A stretch of 64,000 nucleotides of DNA. Source: Candidatus Bathyarchaeota archaeon. GTDB lineage: Archaea; Thermoproteota; Bathyarchaeia; Bathyarchaeales; Bathycorpusculaceae. Location of the stretch: assembly GCA_026014685.1 (NCBI GenBank), contig JAOZHW010000007.1:1-64000 (forward strand). The letters run 5' to 3'. The notes beneath the pieces were generated by a model. That model did no database searches. It was not told where the DNA came from and saw nothing but the letters and a program-made list of their open reading frames with translations. Positions 23 through 14,830 of this stretch are shown here, piece by piece. The position numbers were made by a program, and so were the translations under genes. Each line of letters opens with the position of its first letter. Position 1 is the first letter of the stretch.

Positions 23-147
23 GGCGGGGTATCCGAGCCAGGTCTAAATAGGTGGCCAGACACCGCAAGGTGCACCTAAGATATGGAGGAGGACTTAAGA
101 TCCTCTGGCGCAGGCCTTCGTGGGTTCAAGTCCCACCCCCGCCACCA
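23..147 (+). tRNA. tRNA-Leu (anticodon UAA) with a D-loop insertion
   Basis: The acceptor stem GGCGGGG (23-29) pairs with CCCCGCC (137-143), followed by A144 and an encoded CCA. The anticodon stem GAGGA/TCCTC (89-93/101-105) encloses CTTAAGA, giving anticodon TAA (96-98). The T arm is 120-136 with loop TTCAAGT, and the long variable arm (106-119) is the class II arm expected for Leu. The D stem is TCC/GGA (32-34/85-87), but the D loop is about 50 nt, some 32 nt too long. The extra segment can fold as TAGGTG/CACCTA around a CACC-GCAA-GGTG hairpin, so it is probably a non-canonical archaeal intron near 47-79. Exact splice sites cannot be fixed by eye. The 3' part of the gene is the attachment site of the downstream element. 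Confidence 0.9.
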
Positions 148-190
148 ATATGGTAAAATAACCAGAGGGTTTACGAAATCGGGTGATGAT
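116..190 (+). repeat. attL: direct repeat overlapping the tRNA-Leu 3' end
   Basis: This 75-bp segment begins in the variable arm of the tRNA and runs 43 bp past its CCA. It recurs at 14756-14830 with one mismatch (G153 versus A14793). Tyrosine integrases of archaeal elements typically target tRNA 3' halves and rebuild the gene, so this copy is the attachment site beside the intact tRNA. The stop codon of the integrase starts at the last base of the repeat. Confidence 0.92.
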
Positions 191-1344
191 TAGAATTTGC
201 GTTTTCTGAAGAGTTTATTGCCATCAATTTCGCAGACATAATCAAAGCCTGCTTCAATCAAGATGCAAGCTTCATTTGTTGTTTTAGCTACTTTTGAAAT
301 GTATTCAGTTTCGTTTTTGAACAATGTTTCAGCTAAACTGATGTATCTTTCTGTGTTCTCCGTGCTTTTATGTCCCAGTATTTGCTTGACGTGCAGTATG
401 TCTTTGGTTTTATGGTATTCCATCGTAGCCTTCCAATGTCTAAAAGTGTGGAAGGTTATTTGGTTAATTCTTGGGTTCTTAAGCTTGTGAGCTACTTTTT
501 TACGCTGGAATGCGTAGTCGTCTCGGAAGTTGTCAAGTGAATTGCTGGGGTTACCAAAGATTTTCTGTCCATATTTTCTTGGGTAGCATTCGAGCATGGC
601 TAATAGCTTCTGGCTTAGTTTGCATATTCTTGGGTTACTGCCTTTCTCTGGAGTTATGCGTATGGTTCCTGTTGCAGTGTCTAAATCTGTCCATTTTAGT
701 GTCCATGCTTCTCCACTTCTTATCCCTGTTTCTTTGAGCAATAATAGAAATGTGGCTATTTTTGTGGTTACTGCTGCTATTAGTTGGTCAAGCTCGTTTT
801 CTGTGGGTATGAATGGAATCTTGTTGACTACTTCATAAGTTGGTGGTGTCCATTTTCCTCCTCTCATTTTGAGGAAATTGTTGTAGGCGTTTACTGCGTT
901 AGCTTTTCTGCCTGTGCTCCAACTTTGTTTTGCTATGACTTCTTTGATTGATTCAGGATCATACAGATTTGCGCCCCTTTTTACAAGTACCTCTATTAGT
1001 TTTACGTCGCCTTCTATTGTTGCTTCAGCGTATCCTTGCTTTTTCATCCACCATAAGAATTCAAAGATTACTCCTTTAGAGTCTGCAGCGAATTCTTTGT
1101 CGCCCTCCCGCTGGGCGTTGACTTCGGGTTTAGTTGACAAGTTTTTCGACCTTTCGTCGCATACTTGTTGAGTAATTGTGTACAAAGAAGTCCTATTTAT
1201 GGAGGGCTGAATTCTGTGTCTTTCAGGGAAACTGAATCTGTATCCGCAGATTCTGCAAAGGTAACGTTGAACTGTACTGTCATCTGGTAAACGACGCTTG
1301 CCATCCTTGAATAGTTTATCAGAATGACAGTTTGGGCAGTTCAA
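190..1344 (-). CDS. Tyrosine recombinase (integrase) with N-terminal zinc ribbon
   Basis: Site-specific integrase of 384 aa. Residues 1-40 form a zinc ribbon (C3, C6, C30, C33) of the sort seen at the start of some transposase and archaeal integrase proteins. Residues about 90-165 look like a SAM-like core-binding domain. The catalytic domain carries R209 (TGIRSGEAW), H299 and R302 (HTFRHW), H325 (ILGH) and the nucleophile Y334 (ERYI), so all key residues are present. The gene runs toward the tRNA and its stop codon abuts attL, so integration leaves it intact, unlike SSV-type integrases that are split. It is last in a same-strand run after the two AAA+ genes, with a 24-bp gap. It should catalyse integration and excision at tRNA-Leu. 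Confidence 0.93.
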   Translation of the reverse strand: MNCPNCHSDKLFKDGKRRLPDDSTVQRYLCRICGYRFSFPERHRIQPSINRTSLYTITQQVCDERSKNLSTKPEVNAQREGDKEFAADSKGVIFEFLWWMKKQGYAEATIEGDVKLIEVLVKRGANLYDPESIKEVIAKQSWSTGRKANAVNAYNNFLKMRGGKWTPPTYEVVNKIPFIPTENELDQLIAAVTTKIATFLLLLKETGIRSGEAWTLKWTDLDTATGTIRITPEKGSNPRICKLSQKLLAMLECYPRKYGQKIFGNPSNSLDNFRDDYAFQRKKVAHKLKNPRINQITFHTFRHWKATMEYHKTKDILHVKQILGHKSTENTERYISLAETLFKNETEYISKVAKTTNEACILIEAGFDYVCEIDGNKLFRKRKF

Positions 1345-1368
1345 CGATTAACGTCTCTATTACAGGTT

Positions 1369-3189
1369 TTATGATTTGGCAGTTTCTGGGATGCAGATTG
1401 TTTTGTTAGTATCTGTAAAAACTACAGACCAAACATTGTCTGCTTTTTTGACGACTTTGAATCCAAAATATTTAGACAAAAGCAAGTTATGGGTTTCAAT
1501 GTTGCTGTTGGCTAAATTGCACTCCACGTTACTCCAGTATCTGTTATTATCTTGGTTGAAGTAGCCTTCAAGTTTTGCGAAAGGTACTTCTTCTCCAAGT
1601 TGCTCAACGTTTTGTTCTTTGTAAGCTTTCAAAGTAGCTATGATATCCTTTAGGTAATTTGGGAACTTTTCGTAAATCATCATTTGAAATTGCCATTCTG
1701 TTTCGAGTGTTTTTGAAATGTTTGCTATACTTTCAAGGTTAATGTTTACCAATTGCCCAACATAGCCGTCTGCTTTAACCAGAAGTTGTTCAACGATTTC
1801 TTTGGATATTCCAGCGTTATTTTGTCTTAGATTGACAAATTCAAGAAGCATATCTATGATTGCACAGTTTAAGGCGCCGCCTCGAATGTGCCTGTAAGCT
1901 CCATAGCCATGTGTTCTTAGGAACTCCTTGATTGACCTGTCTTCTATTTGACTTGCAAGGTTATTGACATTCGATTCATAGTTTGTGATTGGTGTTTCAA
2001 ACCATGTTCTCACTGTTGCATCTTTGAAAAGTCTCTGAATCAGTGGATATGCGTATTCTTCGATGGAACGGAAGAATTCAAACCTACTATTCCATGCTGT
2101 TTCATCTAAACTTTGTAGGCTTTTAACCCTCTGGTAAACGCCGTCTCCTCCATAAACTAAAAGTCCTATACGTCGTCCAAGTGCATTGTGGTTTGAACCC
2201 AAAGAATCGATTAAACTTCTGAATGAAGCTATTTTATCAGTGTCATAACCAGTAGGGTTTGCAGTGACAACAAACGTACATTGACCTTCAACTTCAAGGC
2301 TTCCAAAAGCTGTCGATGCACTAGCCTTACCTTTTTCCATGAAAGTTAACATAAACCTAAAGATTTCATGAGCAGATTGACTCTCAAGCTGTTCGATGCA
2401 CACTGGAAGAGTTTGGTCTTGAACCAGACCTTCAGAGTAACGATTTTCTGTGCGAGTACCAATTAGAGAAACAGGAGTTACTTTATCCCTACGTATTCCC
2501 GCAATGTCGTAAATGTAGCTCTTGCCCGTTGCTGGTCCTGTGCATAAAAGCGCATGAGGACAATAAAGCATGTCAACTCCTCTCAATATCGTTGCCTTAA
2601 AAACGGTTTTTAGTCGCGGGTCTTTTTCGGATTGGAATGACAAAAGTTCGTTTTCCACAAAGCTGTTCCAGTCAATTTTATCTAGAAGCGCTGTGTCAGC
2701 CAAGCGTAAAATAGGTTCGTATAGAATCTTATTGTCGATTAGAGTTGATGGATCAAAATTTATGGAATTAATTGGGTAGTAATCAAGCAGTTTAGTTACC
2801 CTTTTCTTTACCACAGTCGGCATACTTTCCCAAAGTTCAGTGAATGGAAGTAGGTCTGTTGGCGAGTATAACTTCAAGGGATAGGCGTTTCTTCCAGGAG
2901 TTATCAAACCTTGAGTGTCAAGGAGTAGGATTGGAGGGTTAGAGTGTGACCTTAAATTAGGCTTAGCTTCAAATAGTGTCCATGATTTGTCAAAGATTAC
3001 CTCGCCTGTCTTTAGTTGTCTGGTGATTGATTTACTGTAGATTGGTTTGATATATTGAAGAGGGGTCATTTTTCTAAAGTATGCTGAAAAGTCTACTATG
3101 CCAGTGAGACTTTCCAGTTGTTGGTTAGGATTTTTTGTTTGTAGAACCACTGGAGACAAGCTGTCCTTAGATGTATTGCTCGAGTTCAT
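1369..3189 (-). CDS. AAA+ ATPase, helicase-like (candidate replicative helicase of the element)
   Basis: Protein of 606 aa with one AAA+ core: Walker A TGPATGKS (217-224), Walker B-like LPVCIEQLE (261-269) and a sensor-1 strand ending in TANPT (Asn near 311), followed by an arginine pair (GRR) that could be a finger. The TANP sensor resembles the MCM/Lon side of AAA+ proteins, but no MCM zinc finger or full MCM signature was seen. The N-terminal 200 residues and C-terminal 200 residues are unrecognised. The start overlaps the end of the RFC-like gene by 23 bp, so the two are probably translationally coupled. A replication role is inferred from that partner and the plasmid-like context. It could instead be a Lon-like or BrxL-like ATPase. 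Confidence 0.75.
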   Translation of the reverse strand: MNSSNTSKDSLSPVVLQTKNPNQQLESLTGIVDFSAYFRKMTPLQYIKPIYSKSITRQLKTGEVIFDKSWTLFEAKPNLRSHSNPPILLLDTQGLITPGRNAYPLKLYSPTDLLPFTELWESMPTVVKKRVTKLLDYYPINSINFDPSTLIDNKILYEPILRLADTALLDKIDWNSFVENELLSFQSEKDPRLKTVFKATILRGVDMLYCPHALLCTGPATGKSYIYDIAGIRRDKVTPVSLIGTRTENRYSEGLVQDQTLPVCIEQLESQSAHEIFRFMLTFMEKGKASASTAFGSLEVEGQCTFVVTANPTGYDTDKIASFRSLIDSLGSNHNALGRRIGLLVYGGDGVYQRVKSLQSLDETAWNSRFEFFRSIEEYAYPLIQRLFKDATVRTWFETPITNYESNVNNLASQIEDRSIKEFLRTHGYGAYRHIRGGALNCAIIDMLLEFVNLRQNNAGISKEIVEQLLVKADGYVGQLVNINLESIANISKTLETEWQFQMMIYEKFPNYLKDIIATLKAYKEQNVEQLGEEVPFAKLEGYFNQDNNRYWSNVECNLANSNIETHNLLLSKYFGFKVVKKADNVWSVVFTDTNKTICIPETAKS

Positions 3190-3838
3190 TTATCGCACCT
3201 CGAAGGTCACCTCTATTAGTTAGTATGGTTTGTAGTACTCGTTGGCTCAGTTGTTGGACTCTTAAAGGTCCCTTTTCTTGCATAATTATGTAATTTAGTC
3301 TATCAAGCATGTCTTGGGGGCTTATTGGCTCAAATTTAAACTTTGTAAGCCGCGAAAGAAGGGGTGCTGTAATGGCTGGATGGTCTGGTTTATTCCAAAT
3401 AAAAATAAACCTGACAAGATCAAAATACTTCGGGTCCATCATTTTTCTCAGAATTGTTTCAACTGTTGAGTTGAGTTTTTCACATTCATCCAAGATTACT
3501 AGTTTATATGACGGTAAGGGTAAATTCACGCGCAAGCCCGTTATGTCATGCGTTGTTATGCTCAAACCGCCTCTTATCCAGTTACCCAATGTATTGCAGG
3601 CTTCTTCCTTGCTAAGCTTTGCTGCTTCGTAAATTCTAAAGTTATAGTATTCGGCGTCTTCACCATAGAGAGCTTGCGCTAAGCAAACAGCTGTTGTGGT
3701 TTTTCCAGTGCCAGGATTACCTACAAAGGCTAAGTTTGGTATGTCTTTTGTTAGTAATCTGCTGTTCAAAAAAGAGATTACATGATGTTGACCGATAACT
3801 TGATTTAGGTTTGTTATAGGGTATTTTGCTAGAAGCAT
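3167..3838 (-). CDS. Truncated RFC small-subunit-like clamp-loader ATPase
   Basis: Protein of 223 aa with clamp-loader features: Walker A GNPGTGKTT (40-48), Walker B LVILDECE (113-120), sensor-1 Asn near 149 and sensor-2 GDLRGAIN (210-217). The family SRC motif appears as SRL (162-164). Cellular RFC small subunits are about 320 aa. This one stops right after the ATPase and lid modules and lacks the C-terminal collar that builds the pentamer. It lies 6 bp after a small basic gene and overlaps the AAA+ gene that follows. It may load the host PCNA at the element origin, interact with host RFC, or load the adjacent helicase. The clamp-loader family call is firm; its actual partner is unknown. Confidence 0.85.
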   Translation of the reverse strand: MLLAKYPITNLNQVIGQHHVISFLNSRLLTKDIPNLAFVGNPGTGKTTTAVCLAQALYGEDAEYYNFRIYEAAKLSKEEACNTLGNWIRGGLSITTHDITGLRVNLPLPSYKLVILDECEKLNSTVETILRKMMDPKYFDLVRFIFIWNKPDHPAITAPLLSRLTKFKFEPISPQDMLDRLNYIIMQEKGPLRVQQLSQRVLQTILTNRGDLRGAINELEQYI

Positions 3839-3844
3839 TGTAAT

Positions 3845-4081
3845 CTACTCCTTTGTACACAACTTTAGTTGCTCAATGTTGGCTACTGATGAAAAGATTT
3901 TTACCGAAGATTCCTTGCGGTCGTAGACGCATATTTCGTCACTATTGTAGCTGTTCTTTTTGTGTTTAGAACTTAACCAACAAGGTTCAAGTTTGTACCT
4001 TGTGGTAAGGTCCAAAACTTTTTCGTCAAAGGAAGCTTGTTTTCTATTTTTAGGTTTTTTACAGATTTTTTTTCTATTCAT
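3845..4081 (-). CDS. Small basic protein of unknown function
   Basis: Protein of 78 aa with a Lys/Arg-rich N-terminus (starting MNRKKICKKPKNRK) and no family recognised. It is the first gene of the leftward run and ends 6 bp before the RFC-like gene, so it is probably co-transcribed with it. The basic charge suits nucleic-acid binding, but no motif proves this. Its ATG follows an AT-rich bidirectional promoter region at 4082-4147. Confidence 0.6.
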   Translation of the reverse strand: MNRKKICKKPKNRKQASFDEKVLDLTTRYKLEPCWLSSKHKKNSYNSDEICVYDRKESSVKIFSSVANIEQLKLCTKE

Positions 4082-4111
4082 TTTTTATCACTGGGAAAAA
4101 CTCTGGTCAAC

Positions 4112-4156
4112 AAGTTTATAATGTCTATCGAATATAGTCATTAATCATTGATAGAC
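4112..4156. promoter_or_regulatory. Divergent promoter with inverted repeat (candidate operator)
   Basis: Between the two divergent transcription units lie an AT-rich TATA-like segment (TTTATAAT, 4115-4122) and an inverted repeat GTCTATC (4123-4129) / GATAGAC (4150-4156) with a 20-bp spacer. It is suitably placed to let the winged-helix product of the rightward gene control both the leftward replication genes and itself. The sequence is seen; the regulatory role is inferred. Confidence 0.5.
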
Positions 4157-4174
4157 AATAAAGTGAAAGACAGC

Positions 4175-5173
4175 ATGAAACAGAAAAGGGTTAGTTCGCC
4201 AAATCGCATATCGACGGAAGAGGAGGTTTATGCCAAAGCCGAAAACATCTTTTTTTCAGAACTTAATCTTAAGATGCCCAAGACAAGACTGCTAATACTT
4301 TTGTATCTTGCTCAGGCAAAGCCAGCCAACCCCAACAACCCAATTGAGTTGCAAAATGAAAAGATCTATGAAAAAACTCATACCACACGAACTAACGCGT
4401 TACACCACTTAGACGCCCTGTTAAGTGAAAAATTTATTCAGATTGTTCGCCAAGATGAATACAAAAATCGCGGAAGTAAACTAACTTACAAAGTCACTAC
4501 AAAGGGGCTGGTTGTAGCAATAATTTACCATGCTACCCCATTTTATGAGATCTTTAAACTAAAGCTACCATGGAATCCTCAATCTGAAGAAGGTTGTGAT
4601 TCAGCATTCTATAACCCAAGAAAGGAACCTGTTAAAATAGAAGATCTGGAACCCCATTGTTATTACTTAAAGGAAATACCCGTTCTTATTGAAAGTAATC
4701 AAGAATTATTCTCAATAAGGTATAACGATCTAAATGACGAGCAAAAAGAGATAGCTAAACGAAGTGCAATTTTCGCAGCTTATGATTATGCAGACAAACG
4801 ATTGCCGCTTTTTGAATCAGTAATCTGTAACAAAGGTATACCAAAAGGTCTTCTAAAGGCAAGCCAGCGGTTTCCTTATCTTAAGGAACAAATAAAACAA
4901 TCGCAAGCTGATCCGTTTAAGACTGAAAAACATGAGGCAAAAGAATTGGCGCCTGACGATGATTTCATCAATCTGTTCTTAACTCAGCCGATTCTTAAAA
5001 AATGGGAAAATTGGCACAAATGGGTTGATTTAATAGTAGGAACGCCAAGTCTAAAAAGAAGGCTTACGTCTAATTTGACAGAGAAGGTGAATTTTATGGT
5101 TATGAAGCGGAATTCACTTTTGACTCAAATAAATTCAATTAAACAAGTTATTAATTTAATTAATCAATGGTAA
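4175..5173 (+). CDS. Winged-helix DNA-binding protein (element regulator or initiator)
   Basis: The first ATG (4175) gives 332 aa. A TTG at 4148 would add nine residues but lies in an arm of the upstream inverted repeat. Residues about 25-105 form a winged-helix/MarR-like domain: a helix pair followed by the recognition helix around TTRTNALHHLDALLSEKFI and a charged wing (YKNRGSKLTYKVTTKG). The C-terminal half is helical and charged with no recognised family. It is transcribed away from the helicase and clamp-loader genes across a shared operator-like region. It could be a repressor of the replication operon or a replication initiator. The winged helix is clear, the job is not. Confidence 0.7.
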   Translation: MKQKRVSSPNRISTEEEVYAKAENIFFSELNLKMPKTRLLILLYLAQAKPANPNNPIELQNEKIYEKTHTTRTNALHHLDALLSEKFIQIVRQDEYKNRGSKLTYKVTTKGLVVAIIYHATPFYEIFKLKLPWNPQSEEGCDSAFYNPRKEPVKIEDLEPHCYYLKEIPVLIESNQELFSIRYNDLNDEQKEIAKRSAIFAAYDYADKRLPLFESVICNKGIPKGLLKASQRFPYLKEQIKQSQADPFKTEKHEAKELAPDDDFINLFLTQPILKKWENWHKWVDLIVGTPSLKRRLTSNLTEKVNFMVMKRNSLLTQINSIKQVINLINQW

Positions 5174-5188
5174 TTTAATACAAACCAA

Positions 5189-5213
5189 TTTTTTTAGTTT
5201 TTTAGTTTTTTAG
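5189..5213 (+). terminator. Triple T-tract terminator
   Basis: Three runs of six or seven T separated by AG follow the winged-helix gene stop by 16 bp. Archaeal transcription termination on the non-template strand needs such T-tracts, so this is a likely intrinsic terminator. Confidence 0.6.
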
Positions 5214-5345
5214 TGGAATAAGCCCCTTATGTACCAAATTCGAATAAAATATAAAAATAAAACTGGAAGATAATGCTCATAATTCTTAAATAGTTCCAAA
5301 TTATTTATATCTATACACATTAAACGATTTTTGAGGAGTTTTTAA

Positions 5346-5501
5346 TTGGGTGTAATATGCTTTAGTATTGACTCCAAACTGGAAGAATCCTTTAGAAAAA
5401 AAGCAGGAGAAATCTACGGAGCCAGACGGGACAGCGTAGGTATAGCATTGAGACAAGCGATCAAGAATTTTCTAGAAGTCAGCAATGACAACTTTAAATA
5501 A
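5346..5501 (+). CDS. Small ribbon-helix-helix (CopG-like) protein
   Basis: A TTG-started 51-aa ORF. The order is strand (CFSIDSKLEESF), helix (RKKAGEIYG), turn, helix (RRDSVGIALRQAIKNFL), as in Arc/CopG/MetJ DNA-binding proteins. A strong ribosome-binding site GAGGAG (5333-5338) sits 7 nt before the TTG, and a TATA-like TTATTTATAT lies further upstream, which supports translation. It opens a rightward run with the next two small genes. In plasmids such proteins usually control copy number or partition; that role is inferred. Confidence 0.65.
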   Translation: MGVICFSIDSKLEESFRKKAGEIYGARRDSVGIALRQAIKNFLEVSNDNFK

Positions 5502-5524
5502 AAAATATCGTGAGGTGAACAAAT

Positions 5525-5800
5525 ATGAAAATAGGAAATGAAATCTTATCAAAAAAGACAACAGGACTAAGCGCAAAAGACCATGATGAATTTGAACGTT
5601 TTAAAGAACAAAGAAAAAAGAAAACACAACAAAAAGAAAAAGAAGAAAAAATTACTGCTAAAATGCCAAATGATGAGGGGGATGCAACCGACACTGAGAT
5701 AGCAAAACAAAGAGAAGACCTTGCAAAAGAAAAACACGCATACGACGAACTAAACAACATTAAGAACAAACAACAAACACAGAGGAATGCAAATTGGTAG
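5525..5800 (+). CDS. Small charged coiled-coil protein
   Basis: Protein of 91 aa dominated by Lys, Glu and Gln, with helical heptad-like stretches (EFERFKEQRKKKTQQKEKE, then EIAKQREDLAKEKHAYDEL) and no recognised domain. A GAGGTGA ribosome-binding site lies 7 nt before the ATG. Its end overlaps the next gene by 7 bp, suggesting translational coupling. Function unknown; a partition, scaffold or nucleic-acid-binding partner is possible. Confidence 0.6.
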   Translation: MKIGNEILSKKTTGLSAKDHDEFERFKEQRKKKTQQKEKEEKITAKMPNDEGDATDTEIAKQREDLAKEKHAYDELNNIKNKQQTQRNANW

Positions 5801-6087
5801 ATTTTTGTGACAAAAACAAGTTGCTAATCAAACAACTTCAAAAATATCTTGAAACAGCCGACCATGACTTTCTGGAGATTTGCGGAAAACTATTGCTGGA
5901 AGGACGAGCCATACCGGACATTAGAGGAACAGTTTGGGAAATACTGCAAGATTTAGATGCGATGGGGCTGATAACTATAGAAATTAAAGTTGAGCCAGAC
6001 TTAGATAATCTAAGAAAAATCAAAAAAGGCGATATTATTGTTCATCCAAAAAAATTAAATTTGGATTTAGATGGTCTTTTTTCTTAA
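5794..6087 (+). CDS. Hypothetical protein in the element's small-gene operon
   Basis: Protein of 97 aa from a TTG inside the end of the preceding gene. It is acidic with alternating helices and strands (QLQKYLETADHDFLEICG, then TVWEILQDLDAMGLITIEIK). The helical middle could be a degenerate winged helix, but no family is recognised. It is followed by the repeat-rich non-coding region proposed as an origin. Confidence 0.6.
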   Translation: MVDFCDKNKLLIKQLQKYLETADHDFLEICGKLLLEGRAIPDIRGTVWEILQDLDAMGLITIEIKVEPDLDNLRKIKKGDIIVHPKKLNLDLDGLFS

Positions 6088-6119
6088 TTTTTTTTTTAAA
6101 AAAAAAACTGCATTGCAGG

Positions 6120-6330
6120 AACACGTGAGATAGCGTGTGTGCACGAGCGAGATATAGTGTGTGAGAATGAGCGATATAGTTTGTGAGAGCAATTTACTCA
6201 TACTCATAATACTCAACACATAACTACTCAACCCAAAAGGAGTACTCAAGTAAGTACTCACTAAGAAAGTTAGATAGTTCTCAAGATGATACTCACTAAG
6301 AAAGTTAGATAGTTCTATCCTATCCAATCA
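6120..6330. repeat. Iteron-like repeat field (candidate replication origin)
   Basis: This non-coding stretch holds several repeat families. A 27-bp unit beginning TACTCACTAAGAAAG occurs exactly twice, at 6255-6281 and 6290-6316. The hexamer-like ACTCA recurs at least seven times between 6195 and 6296. A GAGCGA/TATAGT/TGTGAGA motif occurs twice between about 6140 and 6187. Repeats of this spacing beside replication genes are typical of iteron origins of plasmids. The repeats are seen directly; origin function is inferred. Confidence 0.55.
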
Positions 6331-6385
6331 CATGAACCAATTCCACTCTTCAAATAATAAAATAAACCACTTACGATTGTAACAA

Positions 6386-6467
6386 CTGTGTGGCTTCTCG
6401 GTTCGCCGGTTCTGTTTTCATAATTTCGCAGAATGCTCGAAGACCTAAAAGGTCGAAGAGCACACAG
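6386..6467 (+). ncRNA. Cloverleaf-forming sequence (candidate ncRNA or origin structure)
   Basis: CTGTGTG (6386-6392) pairs with CACACAG (6461-6467) and closes three hairpins. The first is CGG-TTCG-CCG (6399-6408). The second is TTCTG/CAGAA (6410-6414/6429-6433). The third is CTC-GAA-GACCT-AAA-AGGTC-GAA-GAG (6436-6460), with a symmetrical GAA/GAA internal loop. The four helices lie in series without overlap. It is not a tRNA: there is no T-loop or CCA. It may be a transcribed RNA of the element or a structured part of the origin. Confidence 0.45.
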
Positions 6468-6477
6468 GACGGTTGGG

Positions 6478-6509
6478 TCTTACACACAAAGAACAAAATC
6501 TGTGTAAGA
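6478..6509. promoter_or_regulatory. 9-bp inverted repeat upstream of the nuclease gene
   Basis: TCTTACACA (6478-6486) and TGTGTAAGA (6501-6509) are perfectly complementary with a 14-nt spacer. The pair follows the cloverleaf and lies about 55 bp before the nuclease gene. It could be an operator or a terminator stem; a TTTTATA-like box follows at 6523-6529. Confidence 0.45.
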
Positions 6510-6562
6510 TCTAATTTAATTCTTTTATACGAGTGAACAGGTAATTAAACAAAAGACCACCT

Positions 6563-7312
6563 ATGTCAACAAATCATGAACGGGGAAAAAAGGCTGAAGA
6601 ATTTTGTAAGAAGTGGCTTGAAAATTCATTTAAAGATCGCTTTTCAAAAAAGAATTTACCTGTAGGATTTAAAAAAGATGGAAAAATTGCCCAACACAGT
6701 TTCGATCTTGTATCAAGCGACAACCAAGTTGTAGCAGAGGTCAAATCACATCAAATAACCAAAGGTGGAAATAACCCATCAGGAAAAATTGCAGATACCT
6801 ATTATGCTTGTAGTATGCTTGAAAAAGTGAAATCAAATAGAAAATTATTGCTTCTTACTGATGAGCAATTCTATAATCTTTTCAAGCGTTATTCTGATGG
6901 CAAAATAGCCGAGGATATAGAAATTATCCAAGTAAATATCCCAGTTGATTGGAATTGCATTGTTGTTAACAAATTTGACGACTTGACCACATTTCCAAAT
7001 ATGGCCTTTGAAGATTTTTGGCAGGAATTGGCTGAGTATCTTTCTAATGAACGAGAAATAAGTAATTGGACAAAAGACAAAGGATATTTTGGAGAGAATT
7101 TTCTTGCAGGCCCGCTCTTAGGAAACTATGTTACTGTTAAAGCTCCTTCTGCAACTGTAATCCAAAAAGTGCCCAAGAGGGATTTTAAGATTATATATGA
7201 AAAGTGGAAAGATTATCTTAATGGAATTGAAAATAGAGGCAATTTAGCAAAAGACAGCCGATTTACAAAATATACCATAAGCATAATTCACGAGTTACTT
7301 GACAAATCATAA
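6563..7312 (+). CDS. PD-(D/E)XK nuclease-like protein
   Basis: Protein of 249 aa. Residues about 45-65 read FDLVSSDNQVVAEVKSH, which matches the Asp and Glu-x-Lys core of the PD-(D/E)XK nuclease fold, after a helical N-terminus (ERGKKAEEFCKKWLENSF). The remaining 180 residues are unrecognised. It lies alone on the plus strand after the repeat field and faces the MBL gene convergently. Candidate roles are a Mrr/restriction-type endonuclease for defence or a nuclease for element recombination. The fold is likely; target and partner are unknown. Confidence 0.65.
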   Translation: MSTNHERGKKAEEFCKKWLENSFKDRFSKKNLPVGFKKDGKIAQHSFDLVSSDNQVVAEVKSHQITKGGNNPSGKIADTYYACSMLEKVKSNRKLLLLTDEQFYNLFKRYSDGKIAEDIEIIQVNIPVDWNCIVVNKFDDLTTFPNMAFEDFWQELAEYLSNEREISNWTKDKGYFGENFLAGPLLGNYVTVKAPSATVIQKVPKRDFKIIYEKWKDYLNGIENRGNLAKDSRFTKYTISIIHELLDKS

Positions 7313-7357
7313 TGTCCTTTCCATAAGTATTGCGCTACCGAAAATTGAAAATTGTGC

Positions 7358-8824
7358 CTAAATGGCATAGCTATCTCCAATCTTAGTTGGAATAATAACT
7401 TTTTTGGACCAATTCTTGAAAGCATCTGCATTTTCAGTGTGGATAGGAATAACAACCTTTGGAACTACATAGTCGATGAACTGCTTTAGATGCAGACCAG
7501 AAGCGTGTCCCGATACATGGGTTCTGTTGATTTTCATTCCAAAATGGTTTATCCAGTTCTTGACTCTGTTCCAGTCTATCTTCATTTCAGCATCAAAAGG
7601 CTCACAAGCAGACTTAATGTAAACCGAACCCTTGCATGGCTTAACATCAATCATTTCTTTTAAGTCAAAGTTGCTGCAAAACATCAAAAATTCATCTTGA
7701 TTTTCCCGAACTTCTTGGTAACAAATAGCCCTATCAAGATAAGGCCTCTCCCAAGTATCATAATCTTGATTGCGAATCTTTTTATCACAAGAGCTATCCC
7801 CTATCATGCCCCAGCTTTTCCTAGCTGCATAAATCTCTATGTTCTCATCCTCCAATTTAGGCGCTAACGTGTCTGAGCATTTTGACAGTTGATCAAGCAA
7901 ATAAGCCTGTTTTAGTGAGATAGCCAACTTTTTACCCATATGCTTTGCAGCATTAAGAAACGACAACATACGATCTGTATCTCTAATTGACCAATTACAA
8001 ACCGAGAGCCCCTTAGCCTTACTTGTATAGCTACAAATTTCTTGTTCAACATCAATTTCTTTCTTGTCTGAATCCGAGTCTATCCGTGTCCCCTCAATTA
8101 TTAAGACATCTGGCTCTGCCGATCTACAAGCATCCATAAACTCTTGTGTCTTTTTCTCTCGTCTACCATGAAAGCGAAAGTCACCCGTGTAAACCACTGT
8201 TCCTGAAGAAGTATGAATTATGTATCCAGTTGCCCCCGGCAATGAATGATCAACCTGATAAGGCTCAATAGTCAAATGTTTAATCTTGAAAGACTCTCCA
8301 AACTTGAAAGTGCGAAAATCTCTCTCAATTAACAAATCTTCATGAGTCTGAGAGGTTTTACGGCTCAACTCACCTTTCTTGTTAATGTAAGTCTCAAAAC
8401 ACCTAACTAACTCCGTAAGATCGTTAAAACTTCCAGCGCCCGTATCGTTCATGGCCTTTAGTATGGAAAAAGTCTCGGGTGAAGAATAGATCGGCAAATC
8501 CTCCCGCAAGTGATTAATGTAAGAAGCATGATCCGCATGAGCATGAGAAACTAAAACCCCATCAAAATCAAGCTCTTCTTTTTCTATTCCCATATGTTTT
8601 AGAAAATCTTGTCGATAAATACCCTTAAGGTTCGGAATAAGCCCGAACTCAAAAAAATCGCCCAACCCATTACACTTTCTCGGCTGCAAAAATTCTGAAA
8701 AATACCTATTTGCAGTGCCAAAACTCATGCCGAAATCAAGAAAAACTCTCGCATCTTTATCTTCAAGAAGAATCTTGTTACCGCCGATCTCGTTAACGCC
8801 GCCATAGAAGGTTAGCTTAACCAT
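7358..8824 (-). CDS. Metallo-beta-lactamase-fold hydrolase (RNase J/beta-CASP-like)
   Basis: Protein of 488 aa with the metal motif HAHADH (94-99), a second metal His/Asp region (QVDHSLPGATGYII and YTGDFRFHG) and a C-terminal IPIHTENAD segment like the RNA-metabolising MBL module. The architecture fits an RNase J or CPSF-type nuclease, with an unusually divergent beta-CASP region. A role against nucleic acids is inferred from that. It is divergent from the radical SAM gene (140-bp gap) and convergent with the nuclease gene at 6563. As mobile-element cargo it could be a defence or RNA-processing factor. Confidence 0.75.
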   Translation of the reverse strand: MVKLTFYGGVNEIGGNKILLEDKDARVFLDFGMSFGTANRYFSEFLQPRKCNGLGDFFEFGLIPNLKGIYRQDFLKHMGIEKEELDFDGVLVSHAHADHASYINHLREDLPIYSSPETFSILKAMNDTGAGSFNDLTELVRCFETYINKKGELSRKTSQTHEDLLIERDFRTFKFGESFKIKHLTIEPYQVDHSLPGATGYIIHTSSGTVVYTGDFRFHGRREKKTQEFMDACRSAEPDVLIIEGTRIDSDSDKKEIDVEQEICSYTSKAKGLSVCNWSIRDTDRMLSFLNAAKHMGKKLAISLKQAYLLDQLSKCSDTLAPKLEDENIEIYAARKSWGMIGDSSCDKKIRNQDYDTWERPYLDRAICYQEVRENQDEFLMFCSNFDLKEMIDVKPCKGSVYIKSACEPFDAEMKIDWNRVKNWINHFGMKINRTHVSGHASGLHLKQFIDYVVPKVVIPIHTENADAFKNWSKKVIIPTKIGDSYAI

Positions 8825-8964
8825 GCCATCGCCTCTTTGATTGCATAATAATGTGAAAGTCTTTTAAGAATCTTCCAATGTGCAACATATTGAGATTAAA
8901 ATTATTCTTGAATGCCTTAGAGCTATTTCAATAGGCTTATTACTAGCTTCATTATTGAAATTTC

Positions 8965-10092
8965 ATGGAAAAGAAAATAATAGAAGTAGCATGCAAAACC
9001 TTCATGGTTGATGTCAGCCAGTACCCCTTGAACTTCCTGATTTTCCCTCACAGGCTCACAGGTAACAGTTACGTTGGCTGTGAACACAACTGTGTATACT
9101 GTTATGCACGATGGTACTGCAAACAAAACGAAATAAAAGTAAAAACTAATTCCCCAGAAATCCTACAAAAAGAACTACAAAACCGGATAAATAGAGGAAA
9201 ACACCGAGAACCACTATGCCTTGGCTCCATCAGTGACCCCTACCAACCCATTGAAGCTAAATACCAACTAACAAGAAAAACCCTACAAGTCTGCGAAGAA
9301 TTGAGTTACCCACTAATCATAGTAACCAAATCCGCTTTAATCCAAAAAGACATCGATATCCTAAGTTCTCTAGCCCAAAGAAACTTTGTAGCAGTAAACC
9401 TAACCATTACACCACTTGCAAATAAGGTACTTAAAAAACTGGAACCCCACGCACCCTCAAACAGAAAAAGACTAGAAACTATAGAACATATGACCAAAGC
9501 TGGAATACCCTGTAACCTCTACCTTTCACCTATTTTTCCACTTTTTTCTGACGAATTAATTGATGACTGCTTGGAGAAATCTGCTTTAGCTGGAGCCAAA
9601 TGTTGCTCAGCCATTCCGTTAAAGATTAGACCTGTAATTTGGCATAGTATAAAACAATTCTTCAATTCAAACTTGAATCTACTCATCAAAGAACTCGATG
9701 AGCTATATCTTACAGAACAGGCTCCTGATTTGGTAACAAAATACTATGATTTATACTTCAAGAAAGGAACCAAAGACCTCTCTGGATACAGATTGCCAGA
9801 ACTATCTTACAGACGCAAAATGATGGAACATATTGCTAACAAGTGTAAACAGCTTGGTATGTGCTTTACAAGCGAGGAATTTCTTGATCTATGGACTACA
9901 CCCTATTCTGATTGTGTAAACATCGATGGCTGGAATGCACCCACAGCTTACGATATCTTAAAAAAAATAAAAAACCAACCAAAAGCTAGCAAAGAACAGA
10001 TCATTGAATTAATCAAGAAACAGTTTATCCTGGATGATAAATGGGTTAAGTTAGCCAATAAGCATTGGGATAAAATTGAGTTATTTAGTTAA
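8965..10092 (+). CDS. Radical SAM protein of the SPL / DNA-repair-photolyase-like family
   Basis: Protein of 375 aa. The [4Fe-4S] site CEHNCVYC (C39, C43, C46) sits in the context NSYVGCEHNCVYCYARW, characteristic of the spore-photoproduct-lyase-like group (COG1533). The next signature, LGSISDPYQPIE, is also typical. Members are predicted to act on nucleic acids, but most have no proven substrate. The gene overlaps the convergent nuclease gene at 10085 by 8 bp and is divergent from the MBL hydrolase. Together they suggest a nucleic-acid-directed cargo module in the element. Family assignment is firm, substrate unknown. Confidence 0.85.
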   Translation: MEKKIIEVACKTFMVDVSQYPLNFLIFPHRLTGNSYVGCEHNCVYCYARWYCKQNEIKVKTNSPEILQKELQNRINRGKHREPLCLGSISDPYQPIEAKYQLTRKTLQVCEELSYPLIIVTKSALIQKDIDILSSLAQRNFVAVNLTITPLANKVLKKLEPHAPSNRKRLETIEHMTKAGIPCNLYLSPIFPLFSDELIDDCLEKSALAGAKCCSAIPLKIRPVIWHSIKQFFNSNLNLLIKELDELYLTEQAPDLVTKYYDLYFKKGTKDLSGYRLPELSYRRKMMEHIANKCKQLGMCFTSEEFLDLWTTPYSDCVNIDGWNAPTAYDILKKIKNQPKASKEQIIELIKKQFILDDKWVKLANKHWDKIELFS

Positions 10093-10837
10093 CAATCAAA
10101 AGCAAACTTATTATTTTATCAAGTGTTTCAGTGCCTGTTGTTAAACCATTTAAATAAATGTTGAAAAGCTCTTCAGGTAGCTTTAATGCCCTTAGCGTCT
10201 TGCCGCTTTCTAATAATTTTACTCGATACTCAGTGCTGCCGATATTATGGTCCTTTTCAAAGGTTAATTCCCAGTTGTTTGCTTTGAATGTCTTTAAGGT
10301 ATAATCTTTAACTGGTGTTAAAATATTTTTTTTGTCTAATTCTTGAAAACTCCAATTGTCTTCATATTTTAAACCTATTTCGTAGTTAGAACTTTTCAAA
10401 CCAACTCTGAAAGTTCGGATGGTAGTTTCTTTAGGCATCTCTCCATTTGGTCTTTGATAATTCATCCATTGTTCATGCTCCCATTTCAAATATTCAGCCA
10501 CATTTCTGCTCGGAACTATGAAAAATCTGGGCAACTGATTCTCTCGCAGAAGCACGAAACAATAGAATAAGTTGTCGTCAACTATATCTTCATTTTTTTT
10601 ATCCATAATCCATTCATAGTTTGAACCAAAAGGTTTAGTGTTGTAAAGTCCGGTTTTTTCATCAGTTGTTTTTACTTCTACGATTATTCTTTTGCTATTA
10701 TTTGGGTTAACAGCAAAGATGTCCATGTGCTTAGTTTTTCCCAAAGTTGGTGTTGCTAAATAACCATGTACAAATAATTGAGCTACTGTGAAGAATTCGC
10801 CTGCAAGCGACTTTTCGTTTTTACCAAGTTTGTGCAT
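10085..10837 (-). CDS. PD-(D/E)XK nuclease-like protein
   Basis: Protein of 250 aa. Residues about 35-60 contain MDIFAVNPNNSKRIIVEVKTT, the Asp...Glu-x-Lys pattern of a PD-(D/E)XK core, preceded by an N-terminal helix (EKSLAGEFFTVAQLFVHGY) as in Holliday-junction-resolvase and Mrr-like folds. The C-terminal half has no recognised domain. It overlaps the radical SAM gene tail-to-tail by 8 bp. Similar size and core to the nuclease at 6563 are noted, but no clear sequence similarity is visible outside the active site. Confidence 0.65.
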   Translation of the reverse strand: MHKLGKNEKSLAGEFFTVAQLFVHGYLATPTLGKTKHMDIFAVNPNNSKRIIVEVKTTDEKTGLYNTKPFGSNYEWIMDKKNEDIVDDNLFYCFVLLRENQLPRFFIVPSRNVAEYLKWEHEQWMNYQRPNGEMPKETTIRTFRVGLKSSNYEIGLKYEDNWSFQELDKKNILTPVKDYTLKTFKANNWELTFEKDHNIGSTEYRVKLLESGKTLRALKLPEELFNIYLNGLTTGTETLDKIISLLLIVN

Positions 10838-10953
10838 TCTGACATCAATTTATTTGCTCTCATCTTGCATAAGTTCTTTTTGGTGAACTTAGTTCTTACG
10901 TGAGTGTTACGATGTTTTCAACGGGTAAGCCTCTCTTTATTAGTTAGGGCTAT

Positions 10954-11217
10954 ATGGTGCAAATATCAAAGATGTTTGATGATCCTTCAGTTAAAATCCT
11001 GCTATTTATCGGCAATAAGGAAGTCAGGTTTGCTGACCTTACAAAATTAATTTCAAGTCGAGGAGCATTATCATCGAATCTTAAATGCTTAGAGCAAGAC
11101 GGCTTAGTGAGCAGAAGGGTTGTACCGAGCAAGCCAATTCAAGCCTATTACTCTTTAACAGAGAAAGGAAAGAAAGCAGCCAAGAGCTTTTCTGATCTAA
11201 AAGTGCTTCTTCAGTAA
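10954..11217 (+). CDS. Small winged-helix transcriptional regulator
   Basis: Protein of 87 aa resembling ArsR/HxlR/PadR-type single-domain regulators: MFDDPSVKILLFIGNKEVRFADLTKLI, recognition helix ALSSNLKCLEQDGLV, wing SRRVVPSKPIQAYYSLTEKGKKA. There are no clear metal-binding Cys residues. It stands alone upstream of a 0.9-kb non-coding stretch and presumably controls element genes. Confidence 0.8.
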   Translation: MVQISKMFDDPSVKILLFIGNKEVRFADLTKLISSRGALSSNLKCLEQDGLVSRRVVPSKPIQAYYSLTEKGKKAAKSFSDLKVLLQ

Positions 11218-12138
11218 AAGTTCTCAGTAACACTATCAAATCTAAGTCACTATTAAATCTCTAAAGTTGTTGAAAAATGAGCCTTTTGACTGGAAGAATA
11301 TTGAGTATCTTAGAGTAGACATTGTTTTTTAGATGTCACTTAAACTTTTTCAGTTAAGGTTTAGCTGTTTTTCTGCGATTCTAAAACAGTTTCAAAAGTG
11401 ACATAAGAAACCATGATGCCCTGTTTAAGGCTAAAGAATTTGTCAATAACTAATGCTTTGTCAATAACTAATTCAAATGGGTAAATCGCAATCAACCTAC
11501 AACTATCCTTCTTTAGAAATTCAAAATACCAATCGACTCGAACATTAATTTGAATAAAAATTGTTATATCAATGCCTTAAAGCAAGAAAATAGAACTTTT
11601 TCTTTTGGTTAAAGAGACCTTAAGTGTTTAAGTTATTAGAAAAGCGTTCGATAAATATCCAAATAGTAACAAACAGTCTATTTGGACTGATTTCTCCTAA
11701 CTCCATTCAACATATTAAATCCAAACATGATTTATGCACTACACGATTCATAATCTATTCCCATCAGTTAACCCCAAGTTGCAGTAGTAAAAGAATAGTA
11801 AAAATGGCTTAACATACAAACAGATTTCCCTTCCAGAATTTCTTTTTCAGCTTCCAAACACATCTTACAGGAAAACGATTCTAAGCTATCGAAAATATAT
11901 TTTGAAGGATAAACTTAGGATAGTAAGAACTATGTATACCTTGAAGCAAAAAACCATACTTAGCTGTGTACTTCCAAATTACTACTGGAAAACAACAGAA
12001 ATGAAGTAAATAAAATACAACAGGAAAAGCTCGAAGGCTGTTCTTAAAGACAGAACATAGCTGGGTTCCTTAGAGACCTTCCTTTTAATAGCTTAATTTC
12101 AGATGCTTTAATACCGACTTTCCTTATTAACAGTTCCA
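11218..12138. other. AT-rich non-coding stretch of about 0.9 kb
   Basis: No credible gene was found on either strand; the longest ORF (62 aa at 11624) has no coding character. The stretch holds a nested stem-loop at 11333-11404 and a 16-bp direct repeat TTTGTCAATAACTAAT at 11439-11454 and 11457-11472. It may be decayed coding DNA or a second cis-acting region of the element. Confidence 0.5.
11333..11404. repeat. Nested inverted repeat (72-nt stem-loop)
   Basis: ATGTCACTT (11333-11341) pairs with AAGTGACAT (11396-11404), and within it CTGTTTT (11365-11371) pairs with AAAACAG (11383-11389). Two perfect stems of 9 and 7 bp share one axis. It could be a cis-acting DNA site, a terminator or a small RNA. 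No promoter was identified with confidence. Confidence 0.45.
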
Positions 12139-12423
12139 ATGACTAACAGGGCACCAAACCTTTGCATCCGAGATATTACCTTAGAAATTGGTAACTTTAC
12201 AGTAGTGGCTAAAGTAGTAGCTAAGTCCAAAACTAAAGCAGTAATCGAAGACGACACAGGAAGAATAACACTGAACTTGCACGGTAAACAAATACAACAA
12301 GTCCAAGTAGGGCAAACAATCAAAATCTCAGGAGCCTTTGCCCAAACAAAAGACGGGTTTATGGAGATCAGCTCTTGGAAAGAAATAGAAAGTATACAAA
12401 AAAGCGCATTCAAAAGCTTATAA
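12139..12423 (+). CDS. OB-fold single-stranded-nucleic-acid-binding protein (RPA-like)
   Basis: Protein of 94 aa made of one OB fold: IRDITLEIGNFTVVAKVVAKSKTKAVIEDDTGRITLNLHGKQI, then VQVGQTIKISGAFAQTKDGFMEISSW. This strand pattern is that of archaeal RPA/SSB OB domains. It would bind ssDNA, fitting the element's own helicase and clamp-loader-like genes, although it lies 8 kb from them. It is short for a cellular RPA and carries no zinc finger. Confidence 0.75.
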   Translation: MTNRAPNLCIRDITLEIGNFTVVAKVVAKSKTKAVIEDDTGRITLNLHGKQIQQVQVGQTIKISGAFAQTKDGFMEISSWKEIESIQKSAFKSL

Positions 12424-12543
12424 ACAGAATTATCCGAATTTGTTGGATATGACACCTGAGCCCCTTTCTTTGATTTATCGGTGAAATCTACTTCCAATAC
12501 TATCACATTACCAAACTCAATAGATTTAACACATTAAAATATT

Positions 12544-12819
12544 GTGACCATATTGGAAATATTACATACAGCAGACATGGTTAAAGTGGTAAAAACAATT
12601 GATGTGGCAAAAACGTTAAATACACATACCACATCTAAACTATTGGAGAAATTACTGGTGCAACGAAGAAAAGAAGTCAATACGCGCAATGTAGTTCTCA
12701 AAATAGAAACATACAACCGCCTTGACAGGTATAAAGTAAGACTAATAAGCGAAAAAGGAAATTCTAAGCTAACGTTTGATGATGTGTTAAACGACTTATT
12801 AGATAACATTAAGGCATAA
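12544..12819 (+). CDS. Small protein with RHH/VapB-like C-terminus
   Basis: A GTG start gives 91 aa. The C-terminal half (VLKIETYNRLDRYKVRLISEKGNSKLTFDDVLNDLL) matches the strand-helix-helix plan of archaeal VapB/RHH antitoxin-like proteins. The N-terminus is unrecognised. No toxin-sized PIN gene follows. It directly precedes the DNA methyltransferase gene, so it may regulate the restriction-modification pair. Confidence 0.6.
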   Translation: MTILEILHTADMVKVVKTIDVAKTLNTHTTSKLLEKLLVQRRKEVNTRNVVLKIETYNRLDRYKVRLISEKGNSKLTFDDVLNDLLDNIKA

Positions 12820-12884
12820 AACAGGAGAGATGGCAAACGCAAATAGAATATAACCACATTTACTCAGAAGATTGTCTCACATTC

Positions 12885-13715
12885 ATGAATAGGCTTAATA
12901 AGAAAATTTTTAGTGTGATAGTGACCTCTCCCCCGTACAACCTAAGCAAAAAATATTCAAAATATAAAGACGATAAAGAGCGAAACGAGTATCTAACATG
13001 GATGGGAAAAGTTGCTGAAACTGCTAAAAGTGTTCTAAAGGATGATGGCTCATTTTTCTTAAATGTTGGTGGAAGACCAAGTGACCCGTGGCTCGAATTT
13101 GATGTGGCAAGAGAATTTAACAAGCATTTTGAATTACAAAATGTAATCCATTGGATAAAACATATTTCCCTGCCTAAAGATACATCAGTAAAAACCCATA
13201 GTCTTAATGGCGATATGTCTTTTGGGCATTTCAAGCCAATAAATACCAATACTTACCTTAACCAATGCCATGAATATATTTTTCATTTTACCAAAAACGG
13301 GAAAGTCCAGTTAAACAAATTAGCCATTGGTGTACCTTATCAACATAAAAGCAATGTTACACGATGGAAAGAGAAAAGAGACTTAAGGGATAGAGGTAAC
13401 GTTTGGTTTATACGTTATGAAAATAAACAAGGTGGTTTTTCACCAATTCTACATCCAACTATCTTTCCAGAAAAATTGCCTTATCTTTGTATAAAGTTGC
13501 ACGGAGTTAAAGAAGATACCGTGGTGTATGACCCGTTTATGGGTATTGCTTCGACTGCTTTGGCATGTTTAACTTTAGGTGTCAAATTTATCGGTACAGA
13601 AATTGACGAAAAATATGTAACTATAGGTAATAGCAGGATTAATGAGAGGTTAAAAGAGCTAAATCAGAAAAAAGAAGATTTTTTTGCAGAAAAAGGTAGC
13701 TCTGAAATTTCTTAA
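12885..13715 (+). CDS. DNA methyltransferase, beta-class (probably N4-cytosine)
   Basis: The catalytic SPPY motif (15-18) precedes the SAM-binding DPFMG motif near the C-terminus, the beta-class order. SPPY favours N4-cytosine. The first ATG gives 276 aa, but coding similarity extends upstream: the same frame is open to 12813 and reads YNHIYSEDCLTF just before the ATG, a typical MTase beginning. No ATG, GTG or TTG exists in that stretch. An ATG at 12830 is in another frame and would fit if one base were missing near 12850. The true start is therefore unclear; a sequencing slip or a real frameshift is possible. The gene is followed 7 bp later by the nuclease. Confidence 0.85.
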   Translation: MNRLNKKIFSVIVTSPPYNLSKKYSKYKDDKERNEYLTWMGKVAETAKSVLKDDGSFFLNVGGRPSDPWLEFDVAREFNKHFELQNVIHWIKHISLPKDTSVKTHSLNGDMSFGHFKPINTNTYLNQCHEYIFHFTKNGKVQLNKLAIGVPYQHKSNVTRWKEKRDLRDRGNVWFIRYENKQGGFSPILHPTIFPEKLPYLCIKLHGVKEDTVVYDPFMGIASTALACLTLGVKFIGTEIDEKYVTIGNSRINERLKELNQKKEDFFAEKGSSEIS

Positions 13716-13722
13716 GCAGTAA

Positions 13723-14382
13723 ATGTTTTATATACATTCAACAAATTGCTACGTTATGCAGACAGAAGATAAGCCTTTAGACTTGGAAAGCGTTTTTTTG
13801 CTCCATAAAAAAGTAGGTCATATATCATTTTCAGAAGTAGTTTCAAAATCTTGTAAATTTAAAATTATACCAATAGACAAAAACTCACCTGAAGATAAAG
13901 AATTAGTTAGACATTTAACTCTTTCATTAAATAATTTTCTAAAAGTCGCTGGAAAAGCTGGACAAAGATATACAGGAGCAAGAATAAATGACATTGGAAA
14001 AAACCTTGAAACACAGATTGTTGAAGAAATAAAGAAAACACCCTTAGAAATATCGAAGTTATCCTCAAGTGGGTATCCTGATTTTGAGTTAAAGCAAAAA
14101 ACGAGAGTTAGTTATCTTGAGATTAAAACAACAGGTAACGTCCATAAAGATTTGACACAGCATCGGATGTTTTATTATTCTTCAGGGAAAAAAATAAAAT
14201 CAGATGCAAGGCATTTACTTTTACAAATACAAATGGCAGAAGAGCAGAGGGGTTATTGGAAGTTAGTATCTTGGGAAATCCGAGACTTATCCTCTTTAAT
14301 GGTCGAACTGAAAACCGAGTTTAACGCTTCGTTTCATGATTTTGGTGCTACACCCCTTTTAGCTTCATCTGAACCAGCTTAA
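13723..14382 (+). CDS. Type II restriction endonuclease (PD-(D/E)XK)
   Basis: Protein of 219 aa directly after the methyltransferase. The core GYPDFELKQKTRVSYLEIKTT gives P-D...E-x-K, the active site of PD-(D/E)XK endonucleases. Size and pairing fit a type II restriction enzyme; similarity to the MjaI-like group is suspected but unproven by eye. The start may be ATG 13723 or ATG 13756. In the element this pair may act as a stability module or as defence against other DNA. The target site cannot be read from the sequence. Confidence 0.8.
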   Translation: MFYIHSTNCYVMQTEDKPLDLESVFLLHKKVGHISFSEVVSKSCKFKIIPIDKNSPEDKELVRHLTLSLNNFLKVAGKAGQRYTGARINDIGKNLETQIVEEIKKTPLEISKLSSSGYPDFELKQKTRVSYLEIKTTGNVHKDLTQHRMFYYSSGKKIKSDARHLLLQIQMAEEQRGYWKLVSWEIRDLSSLMVELKTEFNASFHDFGATPLLASSEPA

Positions 14383-14755
14383 GTAACGTCATCAACCGAA
14401 AAGTAACAGTCTCATTGAACGGCAGAATAAACCTACCGTAACAGAATCGGAACAGGTTATAATAATTTAAGATAGCTGATCCGTCGGTAAGTGGCCATCG
14501 CATTAATCTTTAAGTTGTTTAGGTTTTCAGTTTTCTGTAAATTCTTGGTTTTAACTAGAGACCATTTTATATTGAATCAGTAGAAATGCTCTTTGATAGT
14601 AAACAACGGACATATGTGAATTTCTTGCAACGACAACTAATATATAGCAAAAAAGTTTCTCAAAAAATTACTTATCACGGGTAGTTTGATACTCCAAAAA
14701 AGAGGTAACCCTTCTTTTAAATAAAAAAGGGGTTATGCGGGTGATATCTCCCTTG
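14383..14755. other. Non-coding right end of the element
   Basis: No gene is seen. A stem TAACCC (14706-14711) / GGGTTA (14730-14735) with an A/T-rich inner part lies 20 bp before attR. It could be a terminator or an integrase-arm or excisionase site. The rest is AT-rich without clear structure. Confidence 0.5.
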
Positions 14756-14830
14756 CTTCGTGGGTTCAAGTCCCACCCCCGCCACCAATATGATAAAATA
14801 ACCAGAGGGTTTACGAAATCGGGTGATGAT
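14756..14830 (+). repeat. attR: second copy of the tRNA-Leu 3'-end repeat
   Basis: Matches 116-190 at 74 of 75 positions and includes the T arm, the 3' acceptor strand and CCA of tRNA-Leu. No 5' tRNA half precedes it, so it is not a functional tRNA. It marks the right boundary of the element. Just beyond it, similarity to the left end continues loosely (AGAATTTGC versus AGGAATTTGC). Confidence 0.92.

Follow-up and report, generated by a model that had tools for sequence, protein, structure and literature searches.

A 14.6-kb integrative, plasmid-like element in a tRNA-Leu gene of Bathyarchaeia with a putative replicative helicase and a short RFC-related protein

Results

Contig C7 of a genome of 2.3 Mb and 23 contigs, which is probably metagenome-derived, begins with the 64,000-nucleotide stretch analysed here (the window). 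This stretch contains an element of 14,640 bp (116-14755) that has entered a tRNA-Leu(UAA) gene at its 3' end. We consider it probable that this is a plasmid-like element which integrates into genomes of Bathyarchaeia, a class that is abundant and uncultured, and that it replicates with a helicase and an RFC-related protein (mini-RFC) of its own. The original prediction of a complete 14.6-kb integrative element with replication genes in tRNA-Leu was borne out by the att pair, by the intact integrase and by relatives that lack the insert. The features are listed below.

23..147, plus strand: tRNA-Leu(UAA) gene, CCA encoded, integration target (ARAGORN; acceptor, anticodon and T arm read by eye)
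116..190, no strand: attL core (74/75 vs 14756-14830)
190..1344, minus strand: tyrosine recombinase, 384 aa, with N-terminal IS1-type zinc ribbon (PF00589, E=5e-19; NF050000 zinc domain)
1369..3189, minus strand: 606-aa AAA+-like putative replicative helicase (motifs; association with primases in relatives)
3167..3838, minus strand: mini-RFC, 223 aa, RFC AAA+ and lid domains, no collar (NCBIfam, PDB, comparison with host RFC)
3845..4081, minus strand: 78-aa orphan ORF (no Pfam match)
4148..5173, plus strand: 341-aa orphan, winged-HTH-like by reading (no Pfam family)
5346-5501, plus strand: RHH-like small gene (tblastn relatives)
5525-5800, plus strand: charged coiled-coil-like small gene (tblastn relatives)
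5794-6087, plus strand: wHTH-like small gene (tblastn relatives)
6130..6310, no strand: short tandem repeats with units of 22, 15 and 35 bp (TRF, repeat search)
6563..7312, plus strand: 249-aa protein, PD-(D/E)XK-like EVK motif by reading (tblastn)
7358..8824, minus strand: beta-CASP metallo-beta-lactamase (MBL; RNase J/CPSF-like), cargo (profile matches)
8965..10092, plus strand: radical-SAM protein (PA0069/Rv2578c-like), cargo (profile matches)
10085..10837, minus strand: 250-aa protein, PD-(D/E)XK-like EVK motif (phrog_29029, E=2e-5; reading)
10954..11217, plus strand: HxlR-type regulator (PF01638, E=3.5e-12)
12139..12423, plus strand: small OB-fold protein, weak (several OB families at E~0.002, below cut-off)
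12544..12819, plus strand: 91-aa orphan, possible small DNA-binding protein (no significant match)
12885..13715, plus strand: Type II DNA methyltransferase, TSPPY motif IV (PF01555, E=3e-47; PADLOC MTase_II, E=3e-98)
13723..14382, plus strand: Type II restriction endonuclease, partner of the methyltransferase (PADLOC REase_II, E=1e-20)
14756..14830, no strand: attR core (74/75 vs attL)

Ends of the element and the target tRNA gene

The att cores form a 75-bp direct repeat, and recomputation gave the same 74 matches as counted originally. The sequences around the two copies diverge right outside the repeat, and the best other ungapped match to the 75-mer within the window is 39/75. attL comprises the T arm, the acceptor and the CCA of the tRNA-Leu and 43 bp further downstream, and the 3' end of the tRNA is rebuilt by the element's own copy. 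The tRNA has, by reading, an intron of ~39 nt in the D-loop, and because of this intron ARAGORN missed the gene in default mode, whereas in permissive mode it called Leu at 23-147. Nothing scored above the gathering score in the Rfam scan, where two tmRNA matches were the tRNA ends. The contrast in base composition claimed originally was found between the element (36.2% GC) and its flanks (46.9% on the left, 44.8% and then 48.0% on the right), but it is blurred at the right edge (38-44% in 14.8-17.8 kb) and over the integrase gene (40-42%).

The end of contig C15 is exactly the first 147 bp of C7 and stops at the tRNA CCA. C15 is likely the left flank of C7, and the overlap shows that the assembly graph branched at the integration target. 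As proof of excision the overlap was rejected, since an empty attB would branch at 153 whereas the overlap stops at 147; all that it suggests is a branch.

Occupation of the site in relatives

The tRNA-Leu(UAA) gene is present in most of the 32 genomes of the genus that were searched. In three of these (G060, G058 and G061) the right-flank genes of the window (GNAT at 19129, 19596 and onward) follow the tRNA-Leu collinearly at 3-8.5 kb, and no element gene was detected between the tRNA and these genes. In the window the same genes lie 19 kb from the tRNA-Leu, a distance that shrinks to 4.3 kb when the element is removed. They are also present, inverted, in G062. An intact integrase of the same family stands at the same tRNA-Leu in G049 and G045, and C-terminal integrase fragments lie next to it in G053, G047, G048, G040 and G043, the last of which may be cut by the contig end. 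The presence of integrases or their remnants in several genomes indicates that the site was used repeatedly. As to whether related genomes carry the same cassette, modules of the element do recur, shuffled, but the element apart from the helicase was not found as a block in the 91 genomes of the family; neither did these genomes contain the same gene order as ordinary chromosomal DNA without att repeats.

In G046 a partial copy of the tRNA-Leu (L126, 7272-7374) was seen 3.6 kb downstream of the tRNA, and it is possible that it marks a small element or a remnant att.

The integrase

The integrase gene is intact and adjoins attL, with its 3' end towards the tRNA. The alignment confirmed the original statement that the catalytic residues are complete (R209, K234, H299xxR302, H325, Y334). 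An SSV-type (suicidal) split was not found, the gene being whole in the integrated state. In this respect, and in using the 3' half of a tRNA as target, the enzyme resembles the classical (non-suicidal) archaeal tyrosine recombinases (PMC8371274), from which it is set apart by the zinc ribbon at its N-terminus; the review mentions neither Bathyarchaeota nor zinc in its main text.

Of 257 Bathyarchaeia genomes, 152 contain relatives of the integrase (E<=1e-25), with a maximum of seven in one genome. Among the 24 best-scoring loci (L194-L217), to which the tRNA tally is confined, 22 have a tRNA whose 3' end faces the integrase 3' end at a distance of at most about 150 bp; the exceptions are L209, an ambiguous case, and L210, where the orientation is opposite. 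The tRNA is tRNA-Leu in 14 cases and that of Arg, Cys, Phe, Ala, Pro or Met in the others. Two of the 22 are D-loop-intron tRNA-Leu genes that had been found in the separate tRNA-Leu search. The genome of the window itself contains two more integrases of the family (L003 in G000:C11 and L004 in G000:C5), one of which is split over two frames at a tRNA-Cys, and the other is intact at a tRNA-Phe. Relatives also occur on eight IMG/VR viral contigs (L153-L160), several of which stop at most a few bases from the 3' end of the integrase, and on one of them (L159) the integrase relative is accompanied by a terminase and a capsid protein of the encapsulin fold. The integrase is thus a class-wide module common to viruses and plasmid-like elements; the zinc-ribbon tyrosine recombinases apparently represent a class-wide family of tRNA-targeting integrases, and this module is not specific to the element described here.

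The 606-aa putative helicase

The 606-aa protein contains a GPATGKS P-loop, an IEQLE motif, a sensor Asn311, Arg340 and a C-terminal helical/winged region, and it matched no Pfam (PF00493, MCM, included), PHROG, NCBIfam or solved-structure (PDB) family. Homologues with 24-30% identity were found in 5 of 256 other genomes of the class, and none in the 31 other genomes of the genus that were searched; elsewhere in the phylum there is one in G498 and a fragment in G475. The aligned family shares the P-loop G222, Q267, E269, E285, G287, N311 and R340, although the relative in G033 lacks the P-loop lysine and that in G137 is cut short. In the Walker-B-like motif of the family, [DE]-Q-[IL]-E, the position expected for the catalytic Glu is taken by an invariant Gln.

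The functional assignment comes from the neighbours of the relatives. The neighbour of the gene in G138 is a primase that combines PriS- and PriL-like domains, and its neighbour in G228 is a PriS-like primase (the PriS scores in both are just under the Pfam cut-off, the PriL score is above it). In G498 a 1078-aa protein (L148, G498:C47, 901-4137) is a fusion of a Prim-Pol (PF09250, E=1e-26) and the helicase. Because a primase is encoded beside, or fused to, these relatives, the 606-aa protein was marked as a replication helicase. In the original description of an AAA+ helicase-like protein, AAA+-like holds by motif only.

Comparisons with MCM gave faint signals. The MCM3 profile matched the hairpin/sensor-1/arginine-finger stretch at E=0.22, which is not significant, and hhalign aligned the protein with the host MCM in that register too, with E=0.09 and a probability below 1%; RFC scored above MCM in hhalign, but over the 14-residue P-loop only. 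The AlphaFold2 model of the window protein was of low confidence (pLDDT 49.6). The model of the G138 relative was better (pLDDT 72), and with it Foldseek returned nothing at E<=0.001; a match to MCM5 had E=0.25 and is not significant. As the MCM signals (E=0.22 and 0.25) are sub-threshold and the Walker-B-like motif is not the usual D-E, helicase activity is regarded as putative, and we classify the protein with low confidence as an MCM-like replicative helicase. No relatives of it were detected in IMG/VR with the narrow patterns used, nor in the phage and plasmid records.

The mini-RFC

The gene of the mini-RFC overlaps the start of the helicase gene by 23 bp. Its product matches RFC small subunits (NCBIfam NF001679, E=9e-31; PDB RFC, E=5e-25), with which it has the AAA+ and lid domains and all ATPase motifs in common, Walker A, Walker B, the arginine-finger box and sensor 2 being retained in the motif alignment. 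It differs from them by the absence of the collar of about 116 aa (the host RFC small subunits run 112-117 residues longer), by a DECEK Walker B and by a two-residue insertion before the SRC box. A second mini-RFC (230 aa, 34% identity) was found in G096, which belongs to another genus of the family. The two share the DECEK motif and the insertion, and they group together in the tree with a support of 0.93, on long branches. The protein, which had been described as a truncated clamp loader, belongs to a short RFC family without collar and is no truncation of this copy. There was no third copy among the matches listed in a class-wide profile search, the rest of which were full-length host RFCs, and IMG/VR contained no relatives detectable with the narrow patterns used. 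In phage records, the listed matches to the mini-RFC had 25-29% identity and came from haloviruses and large phages.

For the role of the mini-RFC, gene coupling allows a guess. It could stem from a clamp-loader ATPase that has come to serve the replication helicases of elements as their own partner or loader, namely the MCM-like 606-aa protein here and, in G096, a Prim-Pol protein; such plasmids would then replicate with a helicase and an RFC-derived loader, and the element in the window would borrow the host primase. We put this forward as a speculation and rate it as rather unlikely.

Other genes, repeats and related elements

The identities of the small ORFs rest on reading. The order of the RHH, coiled-coil and wHTH genes is kept in G068 (L228, 4282-5258), near an integrase of another type, and the RHH gene also occurs in G096 (56% identity). 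A search of 162 other genomes from the order gave no relative of the 341-aa orphan, and the 249-aa protein has a 48% identical copy in G098. The beta-CASP gene has a 75% identical copy in a tRNA-Cys island of G047 with an integrase of the same family; this island showed no helicase match, and no att repeats were found in the stretch searched. Two of the originally named features stood in reduced form. OB families did match the 12139-12423 product, but weakly, and the repeats at 6130-6310 are present, but they are short and degenerate, in an AT-rich gap between genes, and could at best be a candidate replication origin. At the right end of the element the methyltransferase and restriction enzyme genes are adjacent and make up a Type II restriction-modification (R-M) pair. 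None of the scanned ORFs matched a primase in Pfam, such as would mark an AEP/Prim-Pol plasmid; no capsid, portal or terminase was found by Pfam (main ORFs) or PHROGs (ten ORFs), such as would mark a tailed provirus, nor did the element show any recognisable conjugation family.

The element of G096 (C1:1071440-1086550) is also about 15 kb long and has the mini-RFC, the RHH gene, HxlR (67% identical), radical-SAM (58% identical) and R-M genes, the last represented by a large R-M-like protein in the stretch, in common with the element of the window. It differs in having another type of integrase, which stands beside the mini-RFC, and, also beside the mini-RFC, an 888-aa Prim-Pol/PriCT protein in place of the 606-aa helicase. 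No att repeats were found in the left part of it, which was the part searched.

Discussion

The element fits an existing category, the cryptic integrated elements (CIE) of Thaumarchaeota, which have an integrase at one end, att repeats and no capsid or conjugation genes, are mostly under 20 kb (median 17 kb), carry R-M genes and use varied replication proteins such as MCM, Cch and primpol (PMC6563490). The terminal integrase, the att repeats, the length under 20 kb, the R-M genes and a replication protein are found here likewise, but the host belongs to another class and the replication pair differs, consisting of a helicase of no named family and the mini-RFC; PMC6563490 uses none of the terms RFC, clamp loader or replication factor C. 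It is also of interest to compare it with the Prim-Pol/AEP plasmids (pRN1 and pTN2 types). Like these, the helicase relatives in G138, G228 and G498 are linked to an AEP primase, whereas the window element has no recognised primase and its helicase no shown sequence relation to the pRN1/pTN2 types.

The combination of helicase and mini-RFC was, as originally suspected, absent from the libraries and open-licence papers searched and looks new. The suggestion of a new element family is supported in part; it does not hold for a coherent family with a single gene set, because the modules recur with different partners: the helicase has a handful of other occurrences, the mini-RFC one, and the RHH/coiled-coil/wHTH trio, HxlR, radical-SAM, MBL and integrase genes each recur in different Bathyarchaeia elements. 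The element is thus a mosaic, whose integrase and cargo are shared with other elements of the class. Searches of the open-licence literature gave virus papers for Bathyarchaeia and no survey of plasmids or integrated elements of the class. Plasmids of Bathyarchaeia are poorly described; the present element is complete, its ends are defined, and it brings a replication helicase family unnamed in the searched libraries together with a collar-less RFC that two independent elements possess. The integrase family and the tRNA-Leu site provide a practical handle to find the elements of this lineage, and perhaps to build vectors.

We propose that the partners joined by the zinc-ribbon recombinase are an attP of 75 bp and the 3' half of tRNA-Leu(UAA). 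Integration leaves both the tRNA and the integrase gene intact, as is seen from the anatomy of the element, so the reaction should be reversible and release a circle of 14.64 kb. The circle would be replicated by the 606-aa protein as a ring helicase, perhaps from an origin at 6130-6310, while the translationally coupled mini-RFC might load or anchor the helicase or recruit the clamp machinery. Polymerases, PCNA and full RFC would be supplied by the host, and so would the primase, as none was recognised in the element. The Type II R-M pair probably stabilises the element, and the radical-SAM, beta-CASP nuclease and HxlR genes can be regarded as exchangeable cargo. With one mismatch between the att copies and no recognised primase, the element may also have lost the ability to replicate by itself.

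That last point leads to an alternative which we think unlikely, namely a satellite or defective remnant, i.e. an island with integrase, R-M and cargo genes whose replication module is decaying and which is excised only with help or never. A primase stands beside or is fused to the helicase in the relatives and none was recognised here, the clamp loader has no collar, decayed integrases lie at the same tRNA in other genomes, and the MBL-bearing island of G047 has the same integrase family without a helicase match. However, the main genes are all open and the att copies are nearly identical, and the mini-RFC, which retains its ATPase motifs, is found again in an independent element. It is very improbable that the element is a provirus (tailed or of another kind) or a satellite of a virus, with capsid genes that are lost or hidden: the integrase family does occur on IMG/VR contigs, once with a terminase and a capsid protein, but the structural genes looked for were absent from the main products (Pfam) and from ten products (PHROGs), and relatives of the helicase and mini-RFC in IMG/VR, and of the helicase in phage records, were not found with the searches used. 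As the defining tests for a provirus and for a suicidal integrase gave negative results, we dropped both identities, and the element is a cryptic integrated, plasmid-like element rather than a provirus. The fading of the GC contrast at the right edge could suggest an ordinary low-GC region of the chromosome with a chance tRNA repeat, but the probability of this is negligible, the 75-bp repeat exactly bounding the integrase and R-M genes and the block being missing from relatives.

Immediately to the right of attR, in low-GC DNA, the gene at 14841-15539 has a weak likeness to CHAT/caspase-like peptidases (E=0.02), and the DNA around it may be an older insertion.
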